Source of the DNA: Salipiger mucosus DSM 16094
GTDB taxonomy: Bacteria > Pseudomonadota > Alphaproteobacteria > Rhodobacterales > Rhodobacteraceae
Assembly: GCF_000442255.1 (NCBI RefSeq)
Contig: NZ_KE557273.1
Location: forward strand, 362,654-426,653
DNA: 64,000 nt
Direction of reading: 5' to 3'
A model generated the notes under the pieces. The model ran no database searches, was not told the DNA's origin, and worked only from the letters and a program-made list of their open reading frames with translations. The translations under genes were made by a program, and so were the position numbers. Positions 26,083 through 43,375 of this stretch are shown piece after piece (the first letter of the stretch is position 1; every line of letters begins with the position of its first letter).

Positions 26083-26102
26083 GACCAGCGGATGCAGTGG
26101 CG

Positions 26103-26128
26103 CGCGCCCGTTCTTGCGAACGGGCGCG
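26103..26128. terminator. Strong hairpin between the cytochrome operon and the RTX gene
   Basis: An 11-base perfect stem: CGCGCCCGTTC (26103-26113), loop TTGC, then GAACGGGCGCG (26118-26128). It lies 20 bases after the cytochrome stop, between convergent genes, and can serve both strands. Confidence 0.7.
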
Positions 26129-26223
26129 GCCGCTTTGCCGGCCAGATTCCTCCCCCTGGGACGAACCGGCTCCGCGGGGCGCGCGGATCAAGGGGCTGAC
26201 GGCGGTTCAGCCCGGGCCCAAGC

Positions 26224-27800: not shown

Positions 27801-27999
27801 CACAGACGGGCCGTCGGACCGGGAACGGGACGTGCTCCTGGCCTTCGCCCGGGGCGATCCGGCCAAGATCATCGCCCGCGCACTGTCGATCAGCCCGAAA
27901 ACCGTCGAGACCCACAAGTACCGGGGGCTGTCCAAGCTCGGCCTCTCGGGACGGTCCAGCCTTCTGAGCCACGCCCTCGATCATGGCTGGCAGCTCTGA
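27787..27999 (+). pseudogene. LuxR/NarL-type HTH fragment lacking its N-terminal domain
   Basis: Only 70 codons from GTG 27787. The frame encodes a full LuxR-type HTH: SDRERDVLLAFARGDPAKII, then ALSISPKTVETHKYRGLSKL and HALDHGWQL. The receiver or sensor domain expected in front is absent, and the sequence upstream belongs to the RTX gene on the other strand. The stop overlaps the next regulator gene by 17 bases. The C-terminal layout matches that downstream gene, so this is probably a tandem paralogue cut by a deletion or misjoin. A free-standing HTH protein is less likely. Confidence 0.6.
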
Positions 28000-28633
28000 C
28001 GCGAGCGGCGGCGATCGGAATGCGTGCCGGGTCGTCGTCGCGGACGCCTCCCCGATTTTCGCCGACGCCCTGTCGGCGCTTCTGAACAGCAGTCCCGAGC
28101 CCGGACGCGAGATCCGGGCCGTGGCCGTCGCCGGTGGCGCGATCGCCGTGATCGACGCGCGCCCGGACCTGGTGATCGTCGATCCGAACCAGGAAAGCGC
28201 GCTCGAGGATTTCGTCGCGCAGGTGGGCGAGGCCTGTCCCGAGGCACGTTTCGTGGCCTGTGCCTCGAATCCCTCGCTCGAGCTTGCGCGGTTCTGCATG
28301 GAGCTCGATTTTCGCGGCTTCCTGCCCAAGAGCCTGTCGCGTGAAGCGATGATTCGCGCCCTGGCCGTCATCGTCGCCGGCGGCAGCTACGTCGACCGGC
28401 AGTTCGGGCGGCGGCTGATGCGACCGGGCGGTGGGCGCAGCCCGCTCAGCCGGCGCGAAGAGACCGTACTGCGCCGCATGTCCGAGGGCAGCAGTGCCGC
28501 CGAGATCGCCGACGGGCTCGGCATCTCGTTCAAGACAGTCGACACGCATCGCGTGCGCGCGATGACCAAGCTCGATCTCGCCGACCGCAGGGCGCTGGTG
28601 CGCCATGCGCTGGCCCGCGGCTGGCTGGCCTGA
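27983..28633 (+). CDS. NarL/FixJ-type response regulator next to the alginate-type cluster
   Basis: A 216-residue regulator. The N-terminal receiver-like domain (CRVVVADASPIFADALSALL, then LVIVDPNQES with the likely acceptor Asp) has an unusual acidic pocket, ADAS in place of the DD pair, so phosphorylation is uncertain. The C-terminus is a LuxR HTH (LSRREETVLRRMSEGSSAAE, GISFKTVDTHRVRAMTKL). It lies 270 bases upstream of algD on the same strand, with a hairpin between, and may control the cluster. Confidence 0.8.
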   Translation: MAGSSDASGGDRNACRVVVADASPIFADALSALLNSSPEPGREIRAVAVAGGAIAVIDARPDLVIVDPNQESALEDFVAQVGEACPEARFVACASNPSLELARFCMELDFRGFLPKSLSREAMIRALAVIVAGGSYVDRQFGRRLMRPGGGRSPLSRREETVLRRMSEGSSAAEIADGLGISFKTVDTHRVRAMTKLDLADRRALVRHALARGWLA

Positions 28634-28666
28634 CCGCCGCTGCAACATTCGAACAGGGTTTAGACC

Positions 28667-28704
28667 CAAGCGGGCGGCGCCTTGACCGGGCGGCCGTCCG
28701 CTTG
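28667..28704 (+). terminator. Hairpin between the NarL-type gene and algD
   Basis: CAAGCGGGCGGC (28667-28678) pairs with GCCGTCCGCTTG (28693-28704) with one G-T pair, loop 14 bases. It probably separates the regulator from the alg operon. The rest of 28705-28903 holds no gene. A 10-base palindrome GGAAATTTCC is at 28730-28739 and the algD ribosome site GGAAAGGA at 28888. The algD promoter should lie here, but no clear -35/-10 pair could be assigned. Confidence 0.5.
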
Positions 28705-28903
28705 CGTTCGGCCCATGCGCGGCCGGGTCGGAAATTTCCCACGCCGCACTGCAGAACAAACCTTGGAACCTGTCACCGGTCCCACAGCAGATCGGGAAAT
28801 CGTCCCGACTGAAGACCGCTCCGCCGTTTCGATACGCCTGTGTCCAGCAAGAACGATGCGCGGTTGCGAGTTGTAGCGGCGCCCTTCGGAAAGGATATTG
28901 GTT

Positions 28904-30223
28904 ATGACACGGATCAGCGTTTTCGGGATCGGCTACGTGGGGGTCGTCTCCGCCGCCTGCCTCGCCCGCGACGGACACGAAGTAATCGCGGTGGATGTCG
29001 ACGCCGACCGCGTCGATGCTCTCAACCAGGGCCGGCCGCCCATCGTGGAGAAGGGGCTCGACGAGCTTCTGGCCGAGGTCGTCGCAAGCGGCAAGCTTCG
29101 CGCCACGACCGACGCGCAGCAGGCGGTGATGGACACCGACGCCTCCTTCGTCTGCGTCGGCACGCCGAGCGCTCCCGACGGCTCGGTCGGCCTCACCTAC
29201 GTGATCTCTGTCTGCGAGGATATCGGCCGCGCCCTGCGCGCCAAGGACGCGCATCACAGCGTCATCATGCGCTCGACCATCGTGCCGGGCACCATGGAGG
29301 AGGTCTGCATACCGACGCTCGAGAAGGCCTCGGACAAGCGTGCGGGCACCGGCTTCGGCGTCGGCTACTTCCCCGAATTCCTGCGCGAGAGCACCGCGAT
29401 CGAGGACTATGCCGATCCGGGTCTCGTCGTCTTCGGCTCGCTCGATCCCGAGACCGAGGCAGTGCTGACCGAGGTCAACGCGGACCTGCCCTGCGAGATG
29501 CACCGCGTCGACATCCGCACCGCCGAGATGGTCAAGTATACCTCGAACGCCTGGCGGGCCGCCAAGATCAGCTTCGCCAACGAGATCGGCAACATCGCCA
29601 AGGCCAACAAGCTCGACGGCCAGAAGGTGATGGGCATCCTGCAGTCCGACCACAAGGTCGCGATGTCGCCGGCCTTCCTGCGCCCGGGCTTCGCCTTTGG
29701 CGGCTCGTGCCTGCCCAAGGACGTGCGCGCGCTGCGCTCGGTCGGGCGCCAGTGCCGCGTCGCCACGCCGATCCTCGACGCCATCCTCGAGGCCAACAGC
29801 GAGCAGATCGTCCGGGCCGAGGACATGGTCCGTTCCGCCTCCAAGAAGGCCGTCGGCCTGGTGGGTGTCAGCTTCAAGTCGGGCACGGACGACCTGCGCG
29901 AAAGCCCGCTCGCGGACCTAGCGGCGCGCCTGATCGAAAGCGGCCAGGACGTGCGGATCTACGACCCCTACGTCTCCACCGCCTTCGAGAACGATCCCGG
30001 CGCCGAGGGGCGCGGCAACGCGGTGGTTCCCGGCCTCGCGGGCCGCATGGAGCGCGATCTGGACGCGCTGATCGACCGCTCGGAGGTCATCGTCGTCGGC
30101 AACCGTTACCCGGAAGTGCAGGACCGGATCGCCGAGCGCGGCTCGGACCGCCGCATCGTCGACCTGACGAGGATCGATCCCGGCCGGCTGTCGGGCGCGG
30201 AATACCAGGGCATCTGCTGGTAA
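28904..30223 (+). CDS. algD: GDP-mannose 6-dehydrogenase
   Basis: A 439-residue enzyme of the UDP-glucose/GDP-mannose dehydrogenase family, making GDP-mannuronate, the committed precursor of alginate. Visible are the NAD loop FGIGYVGVVSA (residues 5-15), YFPEFLRES, the substrate region EMVKYTSNAWRAAKISFANE, and the catalytic cysteine in FAFGGSCLPKD. GGAAAGGA lies before ATG 28904. First gene of the alginate-type operon and, as in Pseudomonas, directly followed by alg8. GDP-mannose rather than UDP-glucose is inferred from length (about 436 in AlgD) and context. Confidence 0.9.
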   Translation: MTRISVFGIGYVGVVSAACLARDGHEVIAVDVDADRVDALNQGRPPIVEKGLDELLAEVVASGKLRATTDAQQAVMDTDASFVCVGTPSAPDGSVGLTYVISVCEDIGRALRAKDAHHSVIMRSTIVPGTMEEVCIPTLEKASDKRAGTGFGVGYFPEFLRESTAIEDYADPGLVVFGSLDPETEAVLTEVNADLPCEMHRVDIRTAEMVKYTSNAWRAAKISFANEIGNIAKANKLDGQKVMGILQSDHKVAMSPAFLRPGFAFGGSCLPKDVRALRSVGRQCRVATPILDAILEANSEQIVRAEDMVRSASKKAVGLVGVSFKSGTDDLRESPLADLAARLIESGQDVRIYDPYVSTAFENDPGAEGRGNAVVPGLAGRMERDLDALIDRSEVIVVGNRYPEVQDRIAERGSDRRIVDLTRIDPGRLSGAEYQGICW

Positions 30224-30229
30224 TCCGCG

Positions 30230-31696
30230 ATGCTCGGTCATGTGGCATATCTCGCGCTCTGTGCGGTGCTGGCGCTTTCGGTCACGAACCGGAACTTCAC
30301 GGGCACGGAAGGCGCGCTGGTCACGCTCGGCATGATCGGGACGTGGCGGTACAGTTGGGCGTTCGTGAACTTCGTTCGCGCCCAGCTCTACACCCGCCGC
30401 GTCTATCCTCGCGCCCGGCGCCGGGCCGAGGCGGCCTATGCCGCGCGCCCGGCGCCGGCGCATGCCTACTTCATGGTGACGACCTTCAAGATCGAGCCGG
30501 GCGTGACGACGCGCGTCTACGATTCGATCTTCGCGGCGGCCGGCGCCTCGCGCGGGGGGGCGACCATCGTCGCCTCGGTCGTGGACGCCGCCGACCTGCG
30601 CGTCATCCGCGACCTCTGGGAGGCGCGACGCCATGACATGCCGCAGGTGAAGCTGGTGATCGATCGCATCCCCGGCTCGGGCAAGCGCGACGCCATCGCC
30701 CGCTCGCTCCGCCTGCTGCGCCGCGAGTCGCCCACGTCGCGCGACGTCCTCGTCCTCGTCTTCGTCGACGGCGACAGCTGCGTGCCGCTGGACATCGTCG
30801 AACGTGCGGCGCCGTTCTTCACCGATCCGCGCATGGGCGCGCTGACCACCGACGAACAGGTCGAGATCCCCGAGCCGCTGTTCCGCGACTGGTTCAAGCT
30901 GCGTTTCACGCAGTGCCAGATGATGATGTCGTCCATGGCCTACGGTGGCCGCGTGCTGACGCTGACGGGCCGCATGTCCGTCTTCCGCGCGGACCTCGCC
31001 ACCGATCCGACCTTCATCGCGCAGGTGCAGTCGGACCATATCGACCACTGGCGCCTCGGGCGGGTGAACTTCCTGACCGGCGACGACAAGTCGACCTGGT
31101 ACTGGCTGCTGAGCCGCGGCTTCCGCATGACCTACCTGCCGGACGTCCACTCGCTGTCGATGGAAAGCCAGCCGATGCCGGGCTTCTTCGAAAGCGCCTT
31201 CGCGCTGATGCGCCGCTGGTTCGGCAACATGCTGCGGACCAACGGCCGCGCGCTGGCGCTGGGCCCGCGCCGCATCGGGACCTTTACCTGGTGGTCGATC
31301 CTCGACCAGCGGATGTCGATCTGGACGACGCTGATCGGTCCGATCGCGATCCTGCTGACCGCGATTTTCGTCACGCCGGCGGTGATCCCCGCCTACATCG
31401 CCTGGATCATGTTCACCCGCTACCTCTTCTGCTGGGCGCTCTCGACCTTTCGCGGCGGCGGTTTCCCGATCGTCTACGCGCCGCTCCTCTACTTCGGCCA
31501 GATCAGCGGCGCCGCGATCAAGAGCTACGCGCTCTTCCGGCTCGACCAGCAGAAATGGACGCGCCAGGCGGCCTCTTCGGCCAAGGCGGCGCTTCCCCTG
31601 GGCGCGCGGCTGCGCGCGGCCTCCTCCACCTACATGCACGCGCTCGCCCTCGGCTGGCTGACACTGGGCGTGCTCCTTCTCACCGGCATTCTCTGA
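30230..31696 (+). CDS. alg8: Alg8-type mannuronan synthase glycosyltransferase
   Basis: A 488-residue inner-membrane family-2 glycosyltransferase (Pseudomonas Alg8 is about 494). Two hydrophobic segments lie at the N-terminus. The cytoplasmic catalytic part carries VFVDGDSCVP (donor-binding DGD), FLTGDDKSTWYWLL (the GDD/K motif conserved in Alg8), and PMPGFFESAFALMRRWFGNM. At least four membrane helices follow from about residue 360. It polymerises GDP-mannuronate and needs Alg44. The start lies seven bases after the algD stop. The catalytic motifs are intact. Confidence 0.92.
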   Translation: MLGHVAYLALCAVLALSVTNRNFTGTEGALVTLGMIGTWRYSWAFVNFVRAQLYTRRVYPRARRRAEAAYAARPAPAHAYFMVTTFKIEPGVTTRVYDSIFAAAGASRGGATIVASVVDAADLRVIRDLWEARRHDMPQVKLVIDRIPGSGKRDAIARSLRLLRRESPTSRDVLVLVFVDGDSCVPLDIVERAAPFFTDPRMGALTTDEQVEIPEPLFRDWFKLRFTQCQMMMSSMAYGGRVLTLTGRMSVFRADLATDPTFIAQVQSDHIDHWRLGRVNFLTGDDKSTWYWLLSRGFRMTYLPDVHSLSMESQPMPGFFESAFALMRRWFGNMLRTNGRALALGPRRIGTFTWWSILDQRMSIWTTLIGPIAILLTAIFVTPAVIPAYIAWIMFTRYLFCWALSTFRGGGFPIVYAPLLYFGQISGAAIKSYALFRLDQQKWTRQAASSAKAALPLGARLRAASSTYMHALALGWLTLGVLLLTGIL

Positions 31697-31719
31697 GCCC
31701 CCGATAGCAGGATTTTCCG

Positions 31720-32880
31720 ATGACCGTCTCACAAGGATCAGACCACGGGCCCGGCGCGCCGGACGCACCGGCGCCGATGCACGGCGGCAATGAATACCCG
31801 CTGCTCGACATCCCCTTCTCGGTGATGATCGAGGGCCGCCGCTACGCCGGCGAAGGATTGTCGATGGTCGGGGCCGAGGTCACCGGTCTCGTCGACCCGG
31901 CGCTCGACGGCAGCACGGGCATCGCGCGTCTGCTCTTCGATTTCCCGGGCTACCAGCTGGCGCTGACGCCCTCGGTGCTGATCCGCGTGGTGGATTCGAA
32001 CCGCATGGAGCTGGCCTTCACCGAGCCGACGGGCGAGCACGCACCGCAGCTGCGCCAGGTGCTCGGCGACTACATCTCGGGCGATATCACGGCCTCGGGC
32101 TCGGTGATCCGGGCGGGCGCCTTCGCCGAGACGCGCGGGGTCAAGGCGCCCGCCCCGAAGCCGACCTTCGGCCAGCGCCTGCGCGGCGGGGTGGGCTCGG
32201 TGCCGGTCATCGGTGCGACCATTGCGCTGGTCGCCACCGCGGTCGGGCTGGCGCAGTCCAAGCTGCTGACCACGGCCATTCCGGCGCCCGGGCGGGTGAT
32301 CCCGGACGGCCAGACCATGCGCGCCACGGCCGACGGGCAGATCACCTACGTCGACCTCGAGGCGCCCGAGGGCGAGGTGCTCTACAGCATCGACAGCGTC
32401 GATGGGGAAACCCTGTCGATCGCCATGCCCTGCGATTGCAACGCCTACGGCACCGGGGTTGCCGAGGGGAGCACCGTGCTCGCCGGAGAGCCCGTGGTCG
32501 CCGTCGCCCCGCAGGATGCGCAGATGGTCGTCGAGGCCCAGCTGCCGCAGGAACTGCTGTTCCGGATCCAGCGCGCCGGCGGCGTCGGCGTGGAGCTGTC
32601 GGGCGGCGGGGAATTCGAGGCGCGGCTCGACGAGAGCTTCCGCCCGCCCGGCATCGAGGCCGCGGATGAGCCCGAACGCGCGATCCTGCGGCCCGAGATC
32701 GAACTCGAGCCCGAAGCGATGGGCCAGGTCGCCGCGCTGACCGTGCGCTGGGACGCCCTCGCGGGGTTCGAGCCCGTCATCGACGCCTTCGACCGGATCG
32801 GGGCCGAGGTGTCGCGTCAATACACCCAGAACATCCGGCCGCTTCTGGCCGACATTTCAGAGACCGTTGGAGACCAGTAA
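31720..32880 (+). CDS. alg44: Alg44-type polymerisation co-factor with a degenerate PilZ region
   Basis: A 386-residue protein (Pseudomonas Alg44 is 389). An N-terminal PilZ-like region (about 25-130), a single membrane helix near residues 163-185 and a periplasmic HlyD-like region (ITYVDLEAPEGEVLYSI, TVLAGEPVVAVAPQD) are all present. In Pseudomonas, PilZ binds c-di-GMP through RxxxR and (D/N)xSxxG. Here the first segment reads NEYPLLDIPFSVMIEG with no RxxxR, and the second reads GLSMVGAEV. Direct c-di-GMP control therefore looks absent or changed. The stop TAA overlaps the next ATG. Confidence 0.85.
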   Translation: MTVSQGSDHGPGAPDAPAPMHGGNEYPLLDIPFSVMIEGRRYAGEGLSMVGAEVTGLVDPALDGSTGIARLLFDFPGYQLALTPSVLIRVVDSNRMELAFTEPTGEHAPQLRQVLGDYISGDITASGSVIRAGAFAETRGVKAPAPKPTFGQRLRGGVGSVPVIGATIALVATAVGLAQSKLLTTAIPAPGRVIPDGQTMRATADGQITYVDLEAPEGEVLYSIDSVDGETLSIAMPCDCNAYGTGVAEGSTVLAGEPVVAVAPQDAQMVVEAQLPQELLFRIQRAGGVGVELSGGGEFEARLDESFRPPGIEAADEPERAILRPEIELEPEAMGQVAALTVRWDALAGFEPVIDAFDRIGAEVSRQYTQNIRPLLADISETVGDQ

Positions 32881-34298
32881 TGAGCGACCAGAAGATTCAT
32901 CCGATCGTCCTTTCCGGCGGCATGGGAACCCGGCTCTGGCCGATGTCCCGGGTCCGCCAGCCCAAGCAGTTGCAGCCGGTCGACGGCATCGAGGGACCGA
33001 GCTTCCTGCAGGACACCGTCCTGCGTCATCGCGGCGCGGGCTATCACCGGCCGCTGATGGTGGCGAGCGCCTCGGAGGAGGCGCTGATCTTCGAGCAGCT
33101 CGCGCAGATCGACATGCCGGGCGGCTTCGTCGGCGAACCCATGGGCCGCAACACCGGCCCCGCCGTCCTGGCGGCGGCGCTTCACCTCGCCGAGCAGGAC
33201 CCGGAGGCGGTGATGCTCGTGCTGCCCTCGGATCACCGGATCGCCGGCGATCTCGACACCACGCTCGCCGCCGCGCGCCAGGCGGCGTCCGAGGGGGCCA
33301 TCGTCCTCATCGGGATCGTGCCGCGCAGCCCCGAGACCGGCTTCGGCTATATCACCGGCGGCGAGGCGCTGCCCGGTCATTCGGGGGTCTTCGCGGTGGA
33401 TCGCTTCGTCGAGAAGCCGGACCTCGCGCATGCCGAGGCGCTTCTGGCGGCCGGCGGAACCTTCTGGGCCTCGGGCATCAGCATGATGCGCGCCGACGTC
33501 GCAATCGCCGAGTTCGAACGCCACGCGCCGGAAACGCTCGCGGCCGTCCGCGCGGCCTTCGACCGCGCCCGGAACTGCGAGCACGGCATCGTGCTCGACG
33601 GCGAGGGCTTCGCGCAGGCCGAGAACGAACCGACGGAGCGCCTTGTCTTCGAACGCAGCGACCGCGTCGCCGTGGCGCCGTCGAACGTCGACTGGAACGA
33701 TGTCGGCGCCTGGACGGCGATCCATTCGATCGGCGAGAAAAGCTCGCTGGGCAATGTCGAGACAGGGCAGGTCGTGTCGCTCGAGACGCGCAACTCCCTG
33801 ATCCGCGCGGGCAGCGACAAGCTGGTGACGGTGATCGGGATGGAGGACCTGATCGTCATCGACACGCCCGACGCGCTGCTGGTGACCAACCACGCCCACG
33901 CGCAGATGGTGAAGGAGGCGGTGACCGAGCTCAAGGACCAGAACCGGTCCGAGGTCTTCTCTCACCGCGAGGCGCCCTCCGACCGTCCCGAGGCGGGCGC
34001 CATCGCGTCGCACGAGGTCGCCCCGGGCGACACGCTGACCGTCACCGGCGCGGTGCCGGGCGGTGCCATACTGGCGGTGGTCTCCGGCGACAGCGCGGTG
34101 CTGACCGGGGCCGAGACCGGGGCCGCCGATCCGGGCGTGCATGTCTCTGTGCCCGAGGGCGAAAGCGTCATGGTCGAGAACCACGGCAAGACCGACCTGC
34201 GGCTCGTGACCATCGACCTCGCCGCCTCGACCGCGCCGGCACGCCCGGCCGACGAGGACGCGCGAGCGCCGCAGTTCCTGGGCCGCGCCAGTGCCTGA
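32880..34298 (+). CDS. algA: Mannose-1-phosphate guanylyltransferase (AlgA-type) with degenerate C-terminal cupin
   Basis: A 472-residue protein. The GMP domain is intact: VLSGGMGTRLWPMSRVRQPK, GEPMGRNTGPAVL, LVLPSDHRI, GFGYITGG, FVEKPD and VDWNDVGAWTA. It makes GDP-mannose from mannose-1-phosphate. In bifunctional AlgA the C-terminal cupin is a phosphomannose isomerase with a QMHHHRAEHW metal site. Here that place reads TVTGAVPGGAILAVVSGDSA with no His or Glu ligands, so isomerase activity is probably missing and must come from another gene. The start overlaps the alg44 stop and the end overlaps the next gene by eight bases. Confidence 0.85.
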   Translation: MSDQKIHPIVLSGGMGTRLWPMSRVRQPKQLQPVDGIEGPSFLQDTVLRHRGAGYHRPLMVASASEEALIFEQLAQIDMPGGFVGEPMGRNTGPAVLAAALHLAEQDPEAVMLVLPSDHRIAGDLDTTLAAARQAASEGAIVLIGIVPRSPETGFGYITGGEALPGHSGVFAVDRFVEKPDLAHAEALLAAGGTFWASGISMMRADVAIAEFERHAPETLAAVRAAFDRARNCEHGIVLDGEGFAQAENEPTERLVFERSDRVAVAPSNVDWNDVGAWTAIHSIGEKSSLGNVETGQVVSLETRNSLIRAGSDKLVTVIGMEDLIVIDTPDALLVTNHAHAQMVKEAVTELKDQNRSEVFSHREAPSDRPEAGAIASHEVAPGDTLTVTGAVPGGAILAVVSGDSAVLTGAETGAADPGVHVSVPEGESVMVENHGKTDLRLVTIDLAASTAPARPADEDARAPQFLGRASA

Positions 34299-35667
34299 AC
34301 GTCTTCGCACAGGCACCGCGGCGGCGCTGCTTGCGGCGCTCCTCTCCGCGCCCCTTCCGGGCGCGGCGCAGGAGGCCGTCACCGTGGCGGTGCAGGACGC
34401 GCGGCTGGCGCTCATGCAGCTCGCCGCGGGAACCGGGCGCTCGCAGTCGGGGCTGCTCGATGCGGCCTCGCGCGCGATCTACCTGCAGGACGGCAGCGCG
34501 ACGCTGTCCGAGCTCGACGCCGCGGCCGACGAGGCGGGCTCGCTCGATGCGATGACCGCCGGGGCCAACGGCACGGTGACCGCGCATCGCCCGATCGTCG
34601 TGCTGCAGGGCGCCGAGCTGCGGCTCGATCCCGGCGACCGGCTGGCGCTCGACCGCAGGGCGGGGGCCTTCGTGCTGTCGCTCGGCGCCACGGTCTTCGA
34701 CGGGGCCGAGGTCGCCGTCACCGGCGGACGGCATCCCCGGGTCGACGGCTTCCGTCCCTTCATCGCGGGCCTTGGCGAGACCAGCCTCACGCTGCAGGAC
34801 ACGACCTTCACCGGCCTTGGCTACAACGCCGAGTCCACGACCTCGGGCGTGTCGCTCGTGGGGGGCGGGCTCCTGGCCAGCGGCACTGCCGCGCCGGTCA
34901 CAGGCAACACCTTCGAGAACCTGCGCACCGTCTCGCTGAGCGAGCTGGACACGCTGGAGGTCACCGGCAACCGCGTCACGGAGGCGCGAGGCAGCGGCCT
35001 GCGGATCCGGTCTGTGCGCGAGGCCCGGATCCAGGACAACCTGGTCGCACGGCCGCATGGCGCCGAGGCGCTTCACGCCTCCGGGCTGGCCCGCGCGACG
35101 ATCTCGGGCAACCGTTTCGAGGCGGGGCAGGGCAAGGGCGTGCGCATCGACGACGCGAGCCGCGAGCTGCGCTTCACCGGCAACCGCGTCGCCGGCTTCG
35201 ACGGCTCCGGCGTGACCCTCGCCGAGGGGGCCGAGTGCGTCCTGCTTGCGCAGAACGAGGTCGCCGACAACCGCGGCTCCGGCATCTCGGTGCGCGACGC
35301 CGGGACCTTCATCCTGTCGGGCAACGAGGTGCGCGACAACATGGGCCCGGGCATCGGTGTCATCGCCCAGGCCGACGGAAGCGAGGGTCTGATCCTTCGC
35401 AACGTTTTCTCGGGCAATCGGCAGGGTATCCGCGCCACGCGCGTCACGCGTCTTCGGCTTGCCGAAAACGATCTTTCCAAGCAGATGCCCCGGCTTTTCG
35501 GTGGTGATCTCGATCAACACACGCCCGGCTGGCTCAAGGACCGCCGCGCCGATGGCGCGACAAGCATGGTGCTCGAAGAGGCCGCGGCCCGCACCGATGC
35601 CGCCCTTCGCCGCAACGCGGCTGCCGATGCCTACGCCGCGTGCAGCCAGACCGAAGGAGGCGTCTGA
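34291..35667 (+). CDS. algG: AlgG-like periplasmic beta-helix protein lacking the DPHD epimerase motif
   Basis: A 458-residue exported protein (AlgG is about 540) starting at GTG 34291, inside the algA stop region, with signal peptide ending PGAAQ. GFRPFIAGLGETSLTLQDTT corresponds to AlgG HRPFLRGWGGT, and the right-handed beta-helix repeats follow (GNRFEAGQGKGVRIDDASRE, QNEVADNRGSGISV). AlgG converts mannuronate to guluronate and also guides the polymer through the periplasm. At the position of YGIDPHDRS I read GSGLRIRSVRE, so the catalytic DPHD is not there. A structural role, or a different activity, is likely. Confidence 0.7.
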   Translation: MPERLRTGTAAALLAALLSAPLPGAAQEAVTVAVQDARLALMQLAAGTGRSQSGLLDAASRAIYLQDGSATLSELDAAADEAGSLDAMTAGANGTVTAHRPIVVLQGAELRLDPGDRLALDRRAGAFVLSLGATVFDGAEVAVTGGRHPRVDGFRPFIAGLGETSLTLQDTTFTGLGYNAESTTSGVSLVGGGLLASGTAAPVTGNTFENLRTVSLSELDTLEVTGNRVTEARGSGLRIRSVREARIQDNLVARPHGAEALHASGLARATISGNRFEAGQGKGVRIDDASRELRFTGNRVAGFDGSGVTLAEGAECVLLAQNEVADNRGSGISVRDAGTFILSGNEVRDNMGPGIGVIAQADGSEGLILRNVFSGNRQGIRATRVTRLRLAENDLSKQMPRLFGGDLDQHTPGWLKDRRADGATSMVLEEAAARTDAALRRNAAADAYAACSQTEGGV

Positions 35668-35670
35668 GCC

Positions 35671-36411
35671 ATGGTGTTTTCGTCCGAGACTTTCCTGTTC
35701 CTGTTCCTGCCCGGGTTCCTGGCGCTTTATTACCTGACGCCGTGGCGGTGGAAGTCCGCGACGTTGCTGGCCGGCTCCTACGTCTTCTACGCCTGGTGGC
35801 GGGTCGACTTCCTGCTGCTGCTGATCGGCACGACGGTCTGGACCTACATGACGGGCCGCGCGATCCGCGCCTCCGAGGGCGCGCGTCGGCGCATGTGGAC
35901 CGGCATCGGGGTGGCGGGCTGCCTCGCGGTGCTCGGCGGGCTCTGGCACGGCGCGGCCTGGACCTATGTCCTCTGGGGCGCGTGGCACGGCGGCTGGCTG
36001 GCGCTCGAGCGCTATACCGGCTGGGCGAAGTCGCGCAGTCCCGCCGCGCTCCTGCGCACGCTGCTGCTGGTGCTGCTGGGCTGGGTGATGTTCCGCGCCA
36101 CCTCGGTCGCCGAAGCGGGCGAGGTGCTGGCCGGCATGGCGGGCCTCAACGGCATCGGCATGTCGGCCACCTCGGCCTTCCAGATGACCGGCGAAAGCCT
36201 CGTTTTCCTTGCGCTGGCGATCTTCGTCGCGGCGGCCGAGCCTGGGCTGCGCCGCTCCCGCGTCGCCTCGGTCGAGCCCGCCAAGGGCGGCGGCGCGGTC
36301 ACGGTCGCGAACACGCTTCTGCCCAGCCTCGCGACGCTGATCGTCGCCATCCTCGCCGTGCTCAAGCTCTCCGAGCAGAGCTTTTCGCCCTTCCTCTACT
36401 TCCAGTTCTGA
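35671..36411 (+). CDS. algI: AlgI-like membrane O-acetyltransferase missing its central half
   Basis: A 246-residue open frame, about half the length of AlgI (about 520). The N-terminus (MVFSSETFLFLFLPGFLALY, GSYVFYAWWRVDFLLLLIG) and the C-terminal part (GLWHGAAWTYVLWGAWHGGW to LKLSEQSFSPFLYFQF) both match AlgI closely. What is missing lies between them, about 230 residues including the WRRWHISLS region of the MBOAT core. The two parts join in frame at GCLAVLG|GLWHG near 35931-35940. AlgI moves acetyl groups across the inner membrane to AlgJ/AlgX; this shortened form is unlikely to do so. It is either a true deletion or a collapsed assembly. Confidence 0.75.
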   Translation: MVFSSETFLFLFLPGFLALYYLTPWRWKSATLLAGSYVFYAWWRVDFLLLLIGTTVWTYMTGRAIRASEGARRRMWTGIGVAGCLAVLGGLWHGAAWTYVLWGAWHGGWLALERYTGWAKSRSPAALLRTLLLVLLGWVMFRATSVAEAGEVLAGMAGLNGIGMSATSAFQMTGESLVFLALAIFVAAAEPGLRRSRVASVEPAKGGGAVTVANTLLPSLATLIVAILAVLKLSEQSFSPFLYFQF

Positions 36412-36419
36412 GGTCCATC

Positions 36420-37520
36420 ATGCCGCGCATCATTTCCCTGTCGCGATACGCACTGCCGGTCCTGTTCCTGGGCTACGCGGGCTTCGTCAACGTCTCGGTC
36501 TTCACGGGCGACGGCGGCTTCGGCGAGGTCGAGGGCGACATCGTCACCGGCGACGCGACCCAGGTGGTGAACACCCTTTACAGCGAGGCGCAGCCGCACC
36601 GCGAACTCGCGGTCTCGGCCCTTGGCGCGGCGCGCTACCTCGCCCTCGGAGAAGGCCGCGAGGGCGTGACCGTGAGCGAGGGGGGCTGGCTCTTCACCGG
36701 CGAGGAGATGACGCCCGCGACACCGGCGCAGATGACCTCGGCGGTCGAGGGCATCGCCGCTGTCGAGGCGCGGCTGGTCGAGCTTGGCACCTCGCTCGTG
36801 CTCGCGCCGATCCCTGCCAAGGTGGACATCTACCGTGACAAGGGCAGCGCCAAGGCGGGGGCGGCGATGCGGATGCAGTACGATGCCTTCCGCGCCGCGC
36901 TTGCGGACGAGGGCATCGACGCGGTGGACACGCGCCCCGCGCTGGCCCGCGCCTCGGGCGACGCGCCCGTCTTCCTGACCAGCGACACGCACTGGACGCC
37001 CAAGGGCGCGCGCCGCGTGGCCGAGCGCATCGCCGCCTCGGGCCTTGTGCCCGAGGGCGACACCGCGTTCGAGAAGGTGCCCGCGCGCCCGCAACACTTC
37101 ACCGGCGACCTCGTCTCCTTTGTCACCTCGGACGCGCTCGCGCCGCATCTCGGCCTCGGGGCCGAGCGGGTGACGCCCTACGTGGCCGAGCCGGCCGAGA
37201 CGGACGGGGCCGGCGGGGACAGCATCTTCGCCTCGGATCAGCAGTCCATCGACGCGGTGCTGGTCGGCACGAGCTACAGCGCCAACGAGAACTGGAGCTT
37301 CGTGCCCGCGCTGAAGATCGCGCTGCATCGCGACGTGCTGAACCTCGCCGAGGAAGGGCAGGGGCCGGTTGCGCCGATGGAAGCCTTCCTCGGCGACCCC
37401 GCACTCGCCGAGGCGCCGCCCGAAATCGTCATCTGGGAATACCCGGTCCGCTACCTCGGCGTCCCCGCGTCCGGGGCGGCGAATGACACGCCCGAAGAAA
37501 CGGAGGCACCTCATGGCTAG
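36420..37520 (+). CDS. algJ: AlgJ-type alginate O-acetyltransferase, SGNH-like
   Basis: A 366-residue protein with one N-terminal membrane anchor (YALPVLFLGYAGFVNVSVF) and a periplasmic SGNH-like domain. The catalytic pattern is present: SDTHW (Asp189, His191) and GTSYS (Ser285). It probably accepts acetyl groups passed by AlgI and hands them to AlgX or the polymer. ATG 36420 is the start after the algI stop; the frame is open farther upstream inside algI. The end overlaps the next gene by eight bases. Confidence 0.82.
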   Translation: MPRIISLSRYALPVLFLGYAGFVNVSVFTGDGGFGEVEGDIVTGDATQVVNTLYSEAQPHRELAVSALGAARYLALGEGREGVTVSEGGWLFTGEEMTPATPAQMTSAVEGIAAVEARLVELGTSLVLAPIPAKVDIYRDKGSAKAGAAMRMQYDAFRAALADEGIDAVDTRPALARASGDAPVFLTSDTHWTPKGARRVAERIAASGLVPEGDTAFEKVPARPQHFTGDLVSFVTSDALAPHLGLGAERVTPYVAEPAETDGAGGDSIFASDQQSIDAVLVGTSYSANENWSFVPALKIALHRDVLNLAEEGQGPVAPMEAFLGDPALAEAPPEIVIWEYPVRYLGVPASGAANDTPEETEAPHG

Positions 37521-38352
37521 GCTTCTTACGATGGCCATTCTCGCCGGCATGGCGACCCCGGCTGTCGCGGCACCGGTTCCGCTCTCGCTTGACGCGCCCG
37601 GCACGCCGGCCGTGGTCAAGGTCTTCGACAACCGCATCCAGAGCACGAACGACCTGCCGACGCTCGAACTGCGGCGCCTGCGCAGGCGGATGCAGGACGG
37701 CGACAGGCTGAGCTTCCAGGAGATGCGGAGCCTCGCCGATGCCGGCGACGGGCTGGCCGCGTTTCGCTATGGCCAATGGCTTGTGGAGATGGACGATCCC
37801 GAGGTGCTGCCGGCGGCGGCGCTCTACTTCGCCTCGGCGGCCTACACGGACCGCGATTATGCCGTGCGCCCGCTGATCGAGATCCTCGAGCGTGGCGACC
37901 TTGGCATGTCCGACAAACGGCTCGATCACCTCGAGAATGCGCTGCGGGCCTTCGCGATCCGGGGCAATCCGCATGCCTCGGCGGCTCTCGCGCGCTTCTA
38001 CGAAAAGGGCTCTCCCTTCGGCCGCCATCCCGACAGGGCGCAGTCTCTTCTGGTCGAGATGGCCGAGGCCGGAGACCACGAGGCGGCCATGACGCTGGTG
38101 ACGAAGACGATGTCCGGAAAGGCCGATCTGCCCGAGCAAAGGCTGCGCGGGCTGCTCGGCCAGGTCGTCGAAAACGCCGAAACGCTTGGTCGAAAGAGCG
38201 TGGCAAAGACCCTGCTGCGGCGCCTGGACAATGGTCCGCCCGAGACCGCGACGACGGCGGGCGGCACTGACGCCGCCGACGCGACCGGCGTGCAGCGACG
38301 CGAAGACGGCGGCTCGACAGGGATCTTTGCCGCCGGATCGGAGGACGGATGA
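37513..38352 (+). CDS. Exported Sel1/TPR-like repeat protein in the alg operon
   Basis: A 279-residue protein with a signal peptide ending AVAAP. The middle is made of helical repeats of Sel1/TPR type (SLADAGDGLAAFRYGQWLVE, AFAIRGNPHASAALARFYEK, EMAEAGDHEAAMTLVTKTM). The C-terminus is low-complexity. AlgK, the outer-membrane TPR lipoprotein of alginate export, has the same fold, but a longer Sel1 protein encoded downstream is the better AlgK candidate. No lipobox is seen. It overlaps algJ and algX, so it is tightly coupled. A scaffold role in the periplasm is inferred. Confidence 0.7.
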   Translation: MARLLTMAILAGMATPAVAAPVPLSLDAPGTPAVVKVFDNRIQSTNDLPTLELRRLRRRMQDGDRLSFQEMRSLADAGDGLAAFRYGQWLVEMDDPEVLPAAALYFASAAYTDRDYAVRPLIEILERGDLGMSDKRLDHLENALRAFAIRGNPHASAALARFYEKGSPFGRHPDRAQSLLVEMAEAGDHEAAMTLVTKTMSGKADLPEQRLRGLLGQVVENAETLGRKSVAKTLLRRLDNGPPETATTAGGTDAADATGVQRREDGGSTGIFAAGSEDG

Positions 38353-39704
38353 TGACAGTTGGAAATCTCAAGACCGGTGCCGCGATGCTGACGGCCGCCC
38401 TGGCCGGTCTCGGCGGGCTCGCCGCGACGCCGCTCGCGGCGCAGCAGGCGGATGCCTCGAGCTATGGCTGCCGCGACCTGACCTCGGCCAAGCCGATGGC
38501 CTTTCTCGAGGGCGAGGGCGGGGTCTTCTACCGCCTGAATCTCGACATGCGGATGAACCACCCGTTCTCCGAGCGCGCGGCGGCCAGCGTCAAGGCGCTC
38601 TCGGACGCGCTCGCGGCCAAGGGCACGACGCTGGTCTACCTGCCGGTGCCGACGAAAAGCCTCGCCATGCCCGACGAATTGCCGCCGGCCGCCGCCAGCT
38701 TCGGCTACGACGGCGCAGTCGCTCGGAAGGCCTACCGGGCCTTCATCGATCGTTTCCGCGAGGTCGGCGTGCCGGTGGTCGACACCGCGACGGCGATGCG
38801 CGGGGCCGAGGGCCCGGAGCCGCCCTTCGTGGCGACCGATTTCCACTGGTCGTCGACCGGCGCCCGCGCCGTCGCGGGACAGGTGGCCGAGACGCTCGCG
38901 GCGCTGCCGGTCCATGAGGACATGGCGAAAACCGACCATGTCACGCGAAAGACCGAGACGGACAAGCTCGCCTCGGCCATGCGGCGGCGCATCCAGCCCT
39001 ACTGCAGCGACAGCATCCCCCAGGCCGAGACGCAGGGCTTCGTGACCGAGGCGACCTCCGACAGCGGCGGCTCGACCGAGGGCGGCATCTTTGCCGACGC
39101 GGAGAGCGCGCCGCCGATCTCGCTCGTCGGCACGTCGATGTCCGCCGAACCCGCGTTCAACTTCGAGGGCTTCCTTGCCGAGGCCGCGGGCGCCGAGGTG
39201 GCCAACTACGCGATCACCGGCGGCAACCAGTTCGGCTCGATCACCTCCTACCTTCTGTCGGCCGATTTCCGCGACGCGCCGCCCGACGTGCTGATCTGGG
39301 AGAACCCGATCTACAACAACCTCGGCGAATTCGGCGAGCTTCCCTGGCTCGAGCTGATCGCGGCGGTGCAGGACAGCTGCGAGCCGGTCGAGACGACGAT
39401 CTCGGACGACGGGACGCTCTCGGCGCAGCTTTCGACCGACGCGCTGGGCCCGGACGTGTCGATCCGCGCCGACAGCGGTGACGCCAACGGGCGCCAGGCC
39501 TCGTTCCGCTTCAGGACCGAGGAAGGGTTCGCCGTCGACAGCACGATCACGCGGCCCGACCGCTACGAGCCAACGCGCTGGTTCTACCAGGCGCTGGCGC
39601 CGCTGCAGCGCAGCGACTTCACCCGCGTCGAGGTCGGCTTCGATCAGCCGGCCACCGACGACGCGACCATTGCCCTCTGCAACATGAAGGACCCGCAGAC
39701 ATGA
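38349..39704 (+). CDS. algX: AlgX-type alginate O-acetyltransferase with carbohydrate-binding C-terminus
   Basis: A 451-residue exported protein (AlgX is about 474). The SGNH catalytic triad matches AlgX: TDFHW (Asp164, His166) and GTSMS (Ser263). Other AlgX-like segments are VYLPVPTKSLAMP and PDVLIWENPIYNN. The last 110 residues correspond to the carbohydrate-binding module. AlgX puts acetyl groups on the polymer in the periplasm and takes part in the export complex. The ATG at 38349 overlaps the previous stop as ATGA. It looks intact. Confidence 0.88.
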   Translation: MMTVGNLKTGAAMLTAALAGLGGLAATPLAAQQADASSYGCRDLTSAKPMAFLEGEGGVFYRLNLDMRMNHPFSERAAASVKALSDALAAKGTTLVYLPVPTKSLAMPDELPPAAASFGYDGAVARKAYRAFIDRFREVGVPVVDTATAMRGAEGPEPPFVATDFHWSSTGARAVAGQVAETLAALPVHEDMAKTDHVTRKTETDKLASAMRRRIQPYCSDSIPQAETQGFVTEATSDSGGSTEGGIFADAESAPPISLVGTSMSAEPAFNFEGFLAEAAGAEVANYAITGGNQFGSITSYLLSADFRDAPPDVLIWENPIYNNLGEFGELPWLELIAAVQDSCEPVETTISDDGTLSAQLSTDALGPDVSIRADSGDANGRQASFRFRTEEGFAVDSTITRPDRYEPTRWFYQALAPLQRSDFTRVEVGFDQPATDDATIALCNMKDPQT

Positions 39705-40321
39705 AAACGACCCTGATCCTTTCGGCATCGATGATCGCCGCCGCGCTGGCCCTCCCCGCGAATGCACAGGACGACAGCCTCTATCCCGACCCCTCGGCGC
39801 CCGACGCCTCCTTCCTGCGGGTCATCCTGCCCGATGGCGCCACCGCCACGGTGGACGGCACCGCGGTCGAAGCCCCCGAAGCGGGCGTGACCGCCTATGC
39901 CGAAGTGTCGCCGGGCGAGGTCGAGATCGCGGTTGATGACACCACCCAGACCGTCGAGGTCGGCGCCAACACGCACTACACCTGGACTGCCGCCGCAGCC
40001 GAGCCCGCGCTCGTCACCGACATGGTCGAGGATTCGCCCGCGCAGGCGGATCTGCTGATGTACAACCTGTCGGAGGCAGACCCCGTGACGCTCTACGCGG
40101 TCGAGGGCGAAACCGCCGCGCTCGAGGGCGTCGAGACCGGCACGCATGACGGCGTGGGCCTCAAGGCGCCCCTGACGCTGACCTTCGAGATCCGCCAGGA
40201 CGGCGAGACGCTCACCTCGCTCGACCCGGTGGACCTGCGCCGCGGGGCGGCCACGACCATCGTCGTGACCGGCCCGGCGGACGCACCGGAGGCCGCGGCG
40301 ACCGACAGAGTCTACCAGTAA
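39701..40321 (+). CDS. algF: AlgF-type alginate acetylation adaptor
   Basis: A 206-residue exported protein (AlgF is about 216). The signal peptide ends PANAQ and the mature protein begins with a Tyr-Pro segment as in AlgF (LYPDPSAPDASFLRVILPDG). It is followed by beta-rich repeats (YAEVSPGEVEIAVDDTTQTV, LLMYNLSEADPVTLYAVEG). AlgF binds AlgJ and AlgX during acetylation in the periplasm. It overlaps the algX stop by four bases. The match rests on the N-terminal motif, size and context. Confidence 0.8.
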   Translation: MKTTLILSASMIAAALALPANAQDDSLYPDPSAPDASFLRVILPDGATATVDGTAVEAPEAGVTAYAEVSPGEVEIAVDDTTQTVEVGANTHYTWTAAAAEPALVTDMVEDSPAQADLLMYNLSEADPVTLYAVEGETAALEGVETGTHDGVGLKAPLTLTFEIRQDGETLTSLDPVDLRRGAATTIVVTGPADAPEAAATDRVYQ

Positions 40322-40359
40322 GCCGCCCCTGAACCACTCAACCGAGGCCCGGAGGTACC

Positions 40360-42329
40360 ATGCCAAGATTGACACTCAGAGCCGCGAGCGTGCTTGCCTT
40401 CGGGCTGTCGGCGGTCGAGGCGGCCGCCAGCCCCGTCGCGGTTGATTTCGCGCCGCCCGAAGTTTCGGTGCGTGACGTCTGCGTCGCGCGCCCGACCAGT
40501 GCCGAACTGGAAGCGCGCTGGTCGGACTGGGACGGCGCCCTGGACGACAGGCCGCTGTCGCTTGTCCGCAGGGACCTCCGCCTCCTGCGCAGCAGCGACG
40601 CCGAGCGGTGGTACGACACGCTCGAACGCGCCTACGAGACGCTGGAAGCCGAAGTGGAAAGCTACGGGCCGAACGACCACGCGCTCGCCCGGATCGACCT
40701 TCTCGTCGCCGCGGGCCGCTACGAGGAGCTGCGCGCGAGCGGGCTCTTCGACCGGCTGACCACGCTGGCCGACGGCGGCAACCGCGGTGCGATGGTCACC
40801 GCAGCCGAGCTCATCGAAGGGGGCGAGGTCGTCGAGGAGGACAGCGACCGCGCGCTCGCCTACTGGCGCCGCGCGGCCTATGCCGGGCACCCCTCGGCGC
40901 TTCTCGAGATGGCGGGCCGCAGCGCCGAAGGCGCGCGGATCGAGGACTGGACGATCGCGCCCGACATCGCCGTGACCATGGGCTTCGGTGCCATCGTCGG
41001 CGACATCGGACGCCACCATCTGCGACCGGGTCAGCCGCATCGGCACACGCTACCGCAAGGGGGACGTGGTGCAGCAGGACCTGGCGCTGGCCCGAAAGCT
41101 GGTATCGCCTGGCGGCGCAGCTCGGCGGCGCTGACGGCGCGTGGAACGTGGCCCAGCTTCACAAGGAGGCCGAGGGCGTCGGCCGCGACGTGGAGGTGAT
41201 GGTCGCGCATCTCGAACAGGCCGCCGAGGCAGGCCTGCCCTACGCCATGCTGGAGCTGGCCGAGGTGCTGGAACGCGGCGGCATCGTCGAGCGTGACCTC
41301 GACCGTGCCCGTGAGCTCTACCGCGTGGCGGCCGACAAAGGCGACAAGACCGCGCTGATCCGCCTCGTCAACATGGAACGCAAGCTCGGCGGAGATCCCG
41401 CCAAGGCGCGCGCCCGCGTGATCGACGCGCTGCGGCGGCTCACCGAGACCGAGGAACCGCCCGCCTGGGCCTTCATGCAGCTCGGCGACGAGGTCCTTGC
41501 CCGCGACGGCCGCTGGGCCGGCGAGCAGGTCGCGACCGAGAACTACCGCCGGGCGCTCGAGCTGGACCCCGAACACACGCCCGCCCGGATCCGTCTCGCA
41601 CAGTTCGAGTCGCGCTACATCGAGACCCCGCAGGACTTCGAGACGGTCGCGTCCAAGCTGCGCCACGCCGTCCGGGCCGAGGGCCTGACCTCGCCGATGC
41701 AGGATCTCGGCAACGCCTTCCTGTGCCGGCAGCCGACCGCGCCCGAGCTGGGCAGCGCCACCTACTGGCGGCAGATGGAGGCCTTTTCCGGCGACTCGAG
41801 CATCGAGCCCACCATGCGGCAGCTGCGCCGCCTCACCGCGGAAAGCGATCCGCTGGTCTATGCGCAGCTGCAGGCGCAGGCGATCAACGCGCGCTCCCGC
41901 TCGACCGCGAACTTCCTCGAGATCGCCGGACGGGATCGCATCGGCGAGCCGTTCTCCGGTCTGCGCGCGGTGACACGGCGGCAGTCCGACCGCTTCCTGC
42001 AGTCTCAGGCCAAGGTCGACCGCAGGCTGGGCCGCCTGCAGAAGGCGAAGAGCCATCTCGAGGCCGCGCTCGAGGCGGACTAGCCGGGGGCGGGAACCGG
42101 CCTGCTGGACCTGCTGTCCGACGAGGGCGCCATGTCCGACGGCGACCGAGCGCGTGTGCTCGATCTCGCCCGGACCCTCGCAGACGAGGGCAACGGGCAG
42201 GCGATCCGCGCTGTCGTGGCGCTCGACCACGAAACGTCCCGTGAGTGGCTGCGTCGCGCGGCGGATGCCGGTAACGCAGAGGCCCAGTCCACGGCCCGCA
42301 TGATGACACGCGAAAGGACCGACAGCTGA
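40360..42329 (+). pseudogene. algK: AlgK-like Sel1 repeat protein, two frameshifts and an in-frame TAG
   Basis: Starts at ATG 40360 with signal peptide (LAFGLSAVEAAAS). Sel1/TPR repeats run through three frames: ALAYWRRAAYAGHPSALLEM, then TICDRVSRIGTRYRKGDVVQ, then WYRLAAQLGGADGAWNVAQL and LERGGIVERDLDRARELYRV. One extra base near 41008 and one near 41097 explain the breaks. The frame then meets TAG at 42081 but reads on in the same frame with another Sel1 repeat (WLRRAADAGNAEAQ) to TGA 42329, which overlaps algL. Joined, it would be about 655 residues, longer than Pseudomonas AlgK (475). AlgK is a TPR lipoprotein placing the export porin; no clear lipobox is seen here. Confidence 0.7.
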
Positions 42330-43375
42330 TGAAACGCACTTTCTGCCTCAACGCGGCGCTTGGCCTTGCAGCCCTGACCGCCGGCCCCGTACTCGCACAG
42401 TCCGACGAGGCCGGATCGCACCAGGGCGACGTGACCTGCATCGACGTGCCCGAACCGGTCGTGTCGCTGTCCTACGGCAGCCGCTACACCGACGAGAGCG
42501 AGGACCGCTCGGACATCGACCAGGACGCCAACGCTGCCGTCAACGAGGCGCTCGGGCCGATCGACGATTTCATCGTCGATCTGACCGCGCGCGCCAACGA
42601 GGCCGCGTCTGGTGGCGAGGAGGCCGGGCAGGCCGCCTCCTGCGTGGTGGAGGCGCTTGCCGTCTGGGCCGAGGCCGACGCGCTGAGCGAGATGGAAACG
42701 ATGAACGCCAACATCTCCAGCCCCTCGCGGATCGGCGCCCTGGCGCTTGCCTACATCCGGGCGAAACAGATGGGCGAGATCGACCGCGAGCGTGCCGAGC
42801 TGATCGAGACCTGGCTCTCCGCGCGGGCGCACCACGCCATGGACTACTTCGACGCCGAGGCCCCGCCCAAGGCCAGCCGGAACAACCTGCGCGCCTGGGC
42901 CGGCCTCGCGGCGACGGCCGTGGGCCGGACCGCCGATGACGAGGTCCTGACCTCCTGGCGCGCGCATACGCTGGCCCTCGTGGCCTGCCAGGCGGACGAG
43001 GATGGCGCGCTGCCGCTCGAGATGGACCGCGGCCCCCGGGCCCTGCATTACCAGCTGCACGCGGTCGGTCCGCTGGTGGTCTCGGCCGGCCTGCTGGAGC
43101 AGGACGGCTACCCGGCCTTCGGCATCTGCGACGACGCCGTGCCGCGGATCGTCGATTTCACCACGAGGGCCGTCGAGGCCCCCGAGCTTGCCGAGGAGAA
43201 GGCGGGCGAGCCGCAAACCTATCAGAAGGGCGAGGACGAAGTGCAGGCCTTCGAACTGGCTTGGGCGGACGCCTACCTGTCCTTTTTCGAGGACGCGGAG
43301 CTTGCCCGCCTCGTCGAGCCCTTCCGCCCGCTTGGCAACTCCAAGCTCGGCGGCGATCAGTCCCTGCTCTGGTAG
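42329..43375 (+). CDS. algL: AlgL-type alginate lyase (PL5) with NNL in place of NNH
   Basis: A 348-residue exported protein of the (alpha/alpha) toroid alginate lyase family. The signal peptide ends PVLAQ, followed by SLSYGSRYTDESEDRSDID, EALGPIDDFI, SPSRIGALALAYIRAKQMG and LPLEMDRGPRALHYQLHAVG. In AlgL the active site contains NNH(S/R)YW; here residues 185-190 read NNLRAW, so the usual catalytic His is Leu187, while Arg237 and Tyr241 remain. This may be a feature of an alphaproteobacterial subfamily. AlgL clears stray polymer from the periplasm. It starts inside the previous stop (TGATG) and ends the operon before a strong hairpin. Confidence 0.82.
   Translation: MKRTFCLNAALGLAALTAGPVLAQSDEAGSHQGDVTCIDVPEPVVSLSYGSRYTDESEDRSDIDQDANAAVNEALGPIDDFIVDLTARANEAASGGEEAGQAASCVVEALAVWAEADALSEMETMNANISSPSRIGALALAYIRAKQMGEIDRERAELIETWLSARAHHAMDYFDAEAPPKASRNNLRAWAGLAATAVGRTADDEVLTSWRAHTLALVACQADEDGALPLEMDRGPRALHYQLHAVGPLVVSAGLLEQDGYPAFGICDDAVPRIVDFTTRAVEAPELAEEKAGEPQTYQKGEDEVQAFELAWADAYLSFFEDAELARLVEPFRPLGNSKLGGDQSLLW

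Follow-up and report, generated by a model that had tools for sequence, protein, structure and literature searches.

The 64,000-nucleotide stretch of Salipiger mucosus DSM 16094 analysed here (the window; G000:C1:362654-426653 of a 5.69 Mb draft genome in 30 contigs) carries an alginate-type operon at 28904-43375. This operon is probably a decaying member of a branch of the alginate synthase machinery in alphaproteobacteria; intact members would secrete an unepimerised (acetylated) polymannuronate without a need for cyclic di-GMP (c-di-GMP) at Alg44. The lineage, rather than the broken copy in the window, holds the interest, and it is a variant of known alginate machinery. Judged from sequence comparison, it is homologous to the Pseudomonas machinery but rebuilt, widespread and poorly annotated.

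Gene content of the operon

The operon consists of twelve alg-like genes on the + strand in the order D-8-44-A-G-I-J-small gene-X-F-K-L, with mostly overlapping neighbours:

28904..30223, +, algD, GDP-mannose 6-dehydrogenase (Pfam UDPG_MGDP_dh; 1mfz)
30230..31696, +, alg8, glycosyltransferase family 2 (GT2) polymerase (Pfam Glyco_tranf_2_3; motifs DGD, GDD and RW retained)
31720..32880, +, alg44 co-polymerase, PilZ-like N-terminus without RxxxR/DxSxxG (no Pfam match; tblastn)
32880..34298, +, algA-like mannose-1-phosphate guanylyltransferase (Pfam NTP_transferase and ManC beta-helix)
34291..35667, +, algG-like beta-helix protein, DPHD motif absent (Pfam beta-helix; fold match 4nk6)
35671..36411, +, algI remnant, N- and C-terminal parts in a single frame (no Pfam match; tblastn)
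36420..37520, +, algJ, DTHW and GTS motifs retained (Pfam ALGX, found in the longer frame 35640-37517)
37513..38352, +, small gene in the J/X interval (profile seeded from L012)
38349..39704, +, algX, catalytic D163/H165/S262 retained (Pfam ALGX)
39701..40321, +, algF (Pfam AlgF, 5.2e-10)
40360..42329, +, algK pseudogene (one Pfam Sel1 repeat; alignment to relatives)
42329..43375, +, algL-like protein with a polysaccharide lyase family 5 (PL5) fold (Pfam Alginate_lyase; Leu187, Arg237 and His244 at the catalytic positions)

An earlier note on this DNA had described twelve co-directional, mostly overlapping alg genes. Their kinds, strand, overlaps and order stand, but the K gene is not a single open frame. 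Checked protein by protein, the assignments were borne out by Pfam for D, 8, A, G, J, X, F, K and L; Pfam did not recognise Alg44, AlgI or the window copy of the small gene. Alg44 and AlgI were assigned by tblastn, and relatives carry matches at the corresponding positions. The small gene, which the earlier note had called a Sel1 gene, has a homologue at the equivalent J/X position in many relatives according to the profile seeded from L012. The isomerase-domain Pfam model gave no match to the AlgA-like product.

The nearest match of AlgD was the GDP-mannose dehydrogenase 1mfz (437 bits), while the best UDP-glucose dehydrogenase reached 240 bits. Alg8 stands apart from cellulose and other synthases, as the earlier note had supposed: in BLAST comparisons with six loci from outside the lineage its identity to their Alg8 was 39-44% (295-412 bits), while eight other GT2 enzymes gave at most 33 bits. 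An Alg8 tree built by a quick method agrees. Its outgroup, eight of 14 GT2 rows (three others were Alg8 and three shorter ones were omitted), is poor and not trusted, since four end branches stood at 10 and L200 fell among the Alg8 rows, and the BLAST scores decide.

A separate lineage with its own gene order

The idea of a separate lineage with its own fixed order is upheld by the relatives and by the Alg8 tree. Among 107 loci with matches, 45 show the order D-8-44-A-G-I-J-X-F-K and eight the identical order plus L, and because 45 + 8 of 107 loci share it, the order is not a matter of chance; it recurs widely in alphaproteobacterial genomes. These order strings do not label the small gene, which was assessed by profile, and in the group of 45 the fetched DNA mostly stops short of L. 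AlgL, when searched for, was present in 30 of 30 named genomes with AlgI-bearing loci. Beside the AlgI-bearing loci (sublineage 1) there is a second sublineage with the order D-8-44-A-G-small gene-X-K-L and without I, J and F (18 or 19 loci, depending on the count), which forms a single group in the Alg8 tree (20 rows including L092, support 100). The 89 lineage loci include three genomes counted twice (L014/L041, L016/L060, L017/L074) and other near-copies, and nine of them are too short or too odd for placement in a sublineage. For AlgG 88 sequences were found and 87 kept, for Alg44 95 and 90.

Alg8 was detected in 10 of 61 genomes of a first draw of relatives and in 7 of 20 within the genus; two of those ten, G046 and G051, have a distant Alg8 only and lack the operon. 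A family-wide draw with nearly one genome per genus gave Alg8 at E 1e-200 or better in 31 of 394 genomes, a draw in which the operons were unchecked. A 32nd genome (G608, 5.1e-163) was not counted, as it scores like Alg8 from outside the lineage. At the level of the phylum, Alg8 was found at E 1e-30 in 24 of 398 genomes, Pseudomonas-order operons included. A scan of named genomes yielded at least 558 confirmed stretches, of which the best 80 were kept. These 80 belong mostly to Rhodobacteraceae in the wide sense and to Rhizobium, Agrobacterium, Ciceribacter, Devosia, Cohaesibacter and Roseibium, and the named carriers of lineage Alg8 among them include strains of Rhizobium, Devosia, Yoonia, Sulfitobacter and Marinovum.

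In the tree, the window Alg8 belongs to a set of 11 rows (support 99) and stands with those of Palleronia, Maritimibacter and Roseivivax, to which it is 74-77% identical; the Alg8 of its congeners falls at two other places. Because the window Alg8 is placed apart from that of the congeners, repeated horizontal transfer of the operon would be the natural reading of this tree. The 54-kb repABC plasmid pDOK1-4-5 of Tateyamaria omphalii (L181) also carries an operon resembling sublineage 2, alongside genes for type II secretion. In two plasmid records the genes bear generic annotations (nucleotide sugar dehydrogenase, glycosyltransferase, NosD domain, sel1 repeat, hypothetical, alginate lyase family), and because of such annotation the operon is easily missed. 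A further Alg8-based system was noticed in L128, L129 and L130 (family f74), where D-8 is followed by unassigned genes and then by L-like and K-like genes.

Altered sites in AlgG, Alg44 and AlgL

The histidine of the DPHD motif in AlgG probably abstracts the proton during epimerisation, according to passages of PMC4444821. This motif is present in none of 80 lineage AlgG sequences and in five of seven from outside the lineage. In 51 lineage sequences, the columns with a conservation of 90% or more contain one D but not a single H, Y, R, K or E, a pattern that would suit a scaffold better than an enzyme. The overall fold appears to be kept: the model of the window AlgG has a predicted local distance difference test (pLDDT) score of 93.2, and its top PDB match is AlgG 4nk6 (E 4.6e-13; template modelling scores 0.63/0.68). 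In 37 of the 38 operon-bearing genomes, the search turned up no additional gene that matches AlgG at canonical strength. Mannuronan is the first product of the pathway in the passages seen of PMC4444821, PMC8829089 and PMC8461298, and the first of these also reports that alginate production fails in mutants that lack AlgK, AlgX or AlgG. The alphaproteobacterial set appears to have lost the activity that converts mannuronate chains to true alginate. The earlier guess of a polymannuronate-like polymer thus gains support from the AlgG motif, absent in 80 of 80, while the identity of the polymer stays an inference.

The c-di-GMP motif RxxxR...DxSxxG of Alg44 was found in 0 of 83 lineage sequences and in 7 of 7 from outside. 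Mutations of Alg44 that block c-di-GMP binding prevent alginate production, as stated in part of PMC8461298, and we infer that the Alg44 of this lineage works without c-di-GMP.

AlgL of the window keeps one of three catalytic residues: Leu187 stands at the catalytic His (H202), Arg237 at R249 and His244 at the Tyr (Y256). The His (of NNH) is replaced by Leu in 28 of 28 sequences and in 29 of 30 further genomes (57/58), and the Tyr by His in 24 of 28 (three Tyr and one gap, L072) and in 30 of 30 (54/58). In a phmmer alignment Leu187 lies opposite the residue mutated in 7fi2, titled Smlt1473-H168A. The surrounding pattern NLRAW...ALHYQLHA is itself conserved across the lineage, which argues that the change is not random decay. 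The AlgL model has the PL5 fold, and its best structural match is Smlt1473, described in its title as a multi-functional polysaccharide lyase. In the portion of PMC8829089 available, AlgL with H202A, R249A/E or Y256F had no detectable activity in vitro.

Three loci outside the lineage show other combinations. L133 and L135, which lie outside Alphaproteobacteria, have the order D-A-8-44-E-I-J-F-X-L-G with an AlgG-like protein without DPHD and an Alg44 that keeps the c-di-GMP motif; L143 is another alphaproteobacterial alg cluster, D-8-44-G-L, and its AlgG has DPHD.

The acetylation set and the export channel

All 57 loci with AlgI retain the D/H/S triad of AlgX, the window being counted among them despite its AlgI remnant, and so do 6 of 6 loci outside the lineage. 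The triad is lost in 19 of 19 loci of the AlgI-less sublineage. These 19 belong to a total of 22 AlgI-less loci with AlgX; of the other three, L070 (odd) keeps the triad, and L139 and L141 represent a different operon. This joint loss of AlgI, AlgJ, AlgF and the triad is the strongest internal evidence for the annotated roles. The AlgI/J/F/X set is present in the AlgI-bearing relatives, and the window algI is without its middle.

AlgE matches were obtained in 6 of the 107 loci, none of these six in the lineage. Matches to the AlgE family PF13372 with E below 1e-74 occurred in four genomes with the Pseudomonas gene order; the family gave one weak match in 30 lineage genomes and none in six other operon-bearing congeners. 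An AlgE-family gene on another contig of the S. mucosus genome was considered as the exit channel and rejected, as it adjoins beta-lactamase-like and mechanosensitive-channel genes and is absent in the other 19 congeners searched.

Lesions in the Salipiger mucosus copy

The description of the operon as complete-looking does not survive the comparison with relatives. AlgI of the window has 246 aa, and the aligned relatives have 472-492 aa; its first 89 and last ~160 residues align to them and the middle is gone. Compared with five of five near relatives, the loss amounts to exactly 681 bp and is in frame, with the break at 35924-35938, although a separate DNA aligner placed the gap elsewhere. 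The near relatives carry a GTGCTGGG-like stretch at either end of the segment lost from the window, and a deletion mediated by these short repeats would be the simplest cause. Of the 61 AlgI sequences seen in the lineage, 59 have at least 440 aa; the exceptions come from the window and from L057 (383 aa, unchecked). A protein similarity search of the genome found this one place only and no second full-length AlgI, and the MBOAT Pfam model PF03062 had no match across the whole genome. The window algK aligns to its relatives in three successive frames, with changes near 41006 and 41094; it contains a TAG at 42081 and is about 250 codons short (the five nearest relatives have 907-910 aa).

We conclude from these comparisons that the window operon is most plausibly a decaying copy, an assembly fault being the main rival. 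On that view the cell has an unbroken operon, and assembly errors account for the algI gap and for the frame changes in algK and in a neighbouring repeats-in-toxin (RTX) gene. The genome is a draft in 30 contigs, and an additional frameshift-like break lies at 13185-15189 of the window, in a + strand gene outside the operon without a Pfam match. Against errors of this kind speaks the algI loss itself, which is unlike a base-call error in removing 681 bp between short repeats; in algK, likewise, two frame changes come together with a stop and a loss of repeats. A crude frameshift scan flagged a single place in the window and a single place across nine 20-kb stretches (180 kb) elsewhere, and it is a weak control for sequencing error, as it was insensitive enough to miss the changes at 26.7 and 41.0 kb. 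Internal stops noted by the scan numbered six in the window (the ends of algD and algG, the algK stop and three unchecked) and eight elsewhere (unchecked). A megablast search against plasmids for a near-identical copy in which the lesions could be compared found none. Taken together, we consider the assembly explanation unlikely and keep to a decaying copy. With lesions in both algI and algK, normal acetylation and export of the polymer are probably lost in this strain.

Neighbouring genes

The following genes lie beside the operon in the window and in relatives:

27983..28633, +, LuxR/GerE-type regulator just upstream of algD (Pfam GerE, 1.5e-15)
26034..27935, -, gene of a secreted beta-helix and RTX protein, apparently frameshifted (RTX repeats 26224-26715 in another frame than the beta-helix)
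L030 5432-7459 and L041 4186-6963, RTX beta-helix relatives beside the operon
L065 7321-8325 (-) and L100 7442-8368 (-), examples of the PF14099 polysaccharide lyase

Where enough DNA before algD was available, a LuxR gene lies upstream of it in 51 of 59 AlgI-bearing loci; in the AlgI-less sublineage the count is 2 of 17. The LuxR product is the obvious candidate for a regulator that would control synthesis in sublineage 1. The fold of the leader (28640-28904) was unremarkable (z -1.08). The product of the window RTX gene, whose frame change is a reading of the translation, falls into one cluster with the RTX beta-helix proteins encoded next to the operon in relatives, such as the 675-aa protein of L030. 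Among these relatives two match HemolysinCabind and one of them weakly also Pect-lyase_RHGA_epim; the window open reading frame had no Pfam match. PDB matches of the L030 protein begin at residue 363 or later, in the RTX part. A PF14099 polysaccharide lyase gene is divergent from algD in 13 of 17 sublineage-2 loci and in 0 of 59 sublineage-1 loci. Directly downstream of the operon (43599-46740, -) lie EutC, EutB and a choline/ethanolamine kinase-like gene.

Proposed working and alternatives

In an intact member, AlgA and AlgD would supply GDP-mannuronate, which Alg8/Alg44 would polymerise across the inner membrane with no requirement for c-di-GMP at Alg44. The AlgG-fold beta-helix and the repeat protein AlgK may guide the chain through the periplasm, AlgG presumably not epimerising it. 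In sublineage 1 the chain would be acetylated by AlgI, J, F and X; in sublineage 2, where AlgI/J/F are gone, AlgX may act as a scaffold only. AlgL, with its PL5 fold and rebuilt active site, could have weak or altered enzymatic activity or could instead bind the chain, and the chain would leave through an outer-membrane channel other than AlgE. The predicted product is polymannuronate, acetylated in sublineage 1 only, with its synthesis under other control. Given that lineage members have changes at all three sites (epimerase, lyase and c-di-GMP), a secreted unepimerised polymannuronate would be the simplest outcome. The broadest form of this proposal, a major natural branch that makes pure or acetylated polymannuronate with no active epimerase, Alg44 c-di-GMP switch or AlgE, with a rebuilt AlgL and an AlgX that in part of the branch is a non-catalytic scaffold, is in our judgement evenly balanced between right and wrong.

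Several observations weigh against this proposal. The lineage AlgG is just 24-26% identical to that of outside loci, and its active site may be displaced. One of the 38 operon-bearing genomes, Rhizobium tibeticum (G484), does have a second AlgG gene of canonical strength elsewhere. The RTX beta-helix neighbours share the general layout of the Azotobacter AlgE epimerases, and extracellular epimerisation by such a neighbour is possible for some sublineage-1 loci. Among the AlgL sequences, three still have the Tyr and one still has the His, and P. aeruginosa AlgL H202A, inactive in vitro, was wild-type-like in vivo (PMC8829089, in part). AlgE is not universal outside the lineage either, the control G245 showing weak AlgE-family matches only. 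The window lesions, finally, could be assembly errors, the crude scan flagging one further break in the window.

The second AlgG gene of R. tibeticum is located at G484:C76:179688-181046 with an alginate-lyase-like match close by, in a genome that also has the lineage operon; its strength is like that of the L143 AlgG.

Some of these points would fit an ordinary mannuronate/guluronate alginate, made either by an AlgG with relocated catalytic residues or by a secreted RTX beta-helix epimerase outside the cell. The AlgG fold is retained and the gene is present in both sublineages, secreted beta-helix RTX genes adjoin some loci, and one genome has its second AlgG. An AlgG without any conserved H, Y, R, K or E argues against the first variant. 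As for the second, the DPH motif occurs in none of 18 clustered RTX beta-helix open reading frames, and an RTX neighbour is seen at just 12 of the 47 loci of sublineage 1 that were eligible, and at none of the 15 of sublineage 2. Ordinary alginate is for these reasons a doubtful alternative. A different mannuronate- or glucuronate-containing polymer made by Alg8 homologues, which would account for the altered AlgL and AlgG sites, seems improbable: the resemblance of the AlgL model to Smlt1473 and the PF14099 lyase beside algD in sublineage 2 favour it, but AlgD and AlgA indicate GDP-mannuronate, Alg8 is 39-44% identical to the Alg8 of the other loci and the acetylation genes are homologous to those of alginate.

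Comparison with known systems

No description of this lineage was found in the open-access literature, subscription papers being mostly outside the scope of the search. Partial texts of PMC7892980 place a single gene from a Yangia strain in the category 'O-acetylation, alginate biosynthesis', and those of PMC6224355 and PMC12363192 mention algA and algC for Phaeobacter inhibens. According to a 2015 review, no natural producer of mannuronan is known. The lineage provides a concrete candidate set for natural polymannuronate producers. If the proposal holds, these would be natural sources of polymannuronate, and epimerisation, canonical lyase activity and control of Alg44 by c-di-GMP would not be obligatory for alginate-type secretion.

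The alginate operon of Pseudomonas and Azotobacter has the order algD-8-44-K-E-G-X-L-I-J-F-A, which we also saw in L132 and L134. Shared with it are homologues of eleven of the twelve genes, namely the genes for the GDP-mannuronate precursor, the Alg8/Alg44 core, the AlgI/J/F/X acetylation set, AlgK and AlgL among them. The lineage differs in its order and in the absence of AlgE, in an AlgG without DPHD and an Alg44 without the c-di-GMP motif, in an AlgL without the catalytic His and usually the Tyr, in an AlgK of about 910 aa, in the extra small gene and in the LuxR gene that usually lies upstream in sublineage 1. Similarly, AlgG 4nk6, AlgL 4ozv and Smlt1473 7fhv have folds like those of the window AlgG- and AlgL-like models, in which the catalytic residues are not kept.

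Bundalovic-Torma et al. 2020 (PMC7112194) describe, in the text available, 64 alginate operons, the majority from Pseudomonas and some of them atypical. The atypical ones resemble the present lineage in rearranged orders and in losses of algKE or of modification genes; no such alphaproteobacterial lineage or motif losses are named in that text. A metagenome-assembled genome of a kelp-associated Micavibrionaceae member (PMC9238374, in part) is likewise alphaproteobacterial and has five alginate biosynthesis genes; compared by description only, it differs from the lineage in that its set includes algE.

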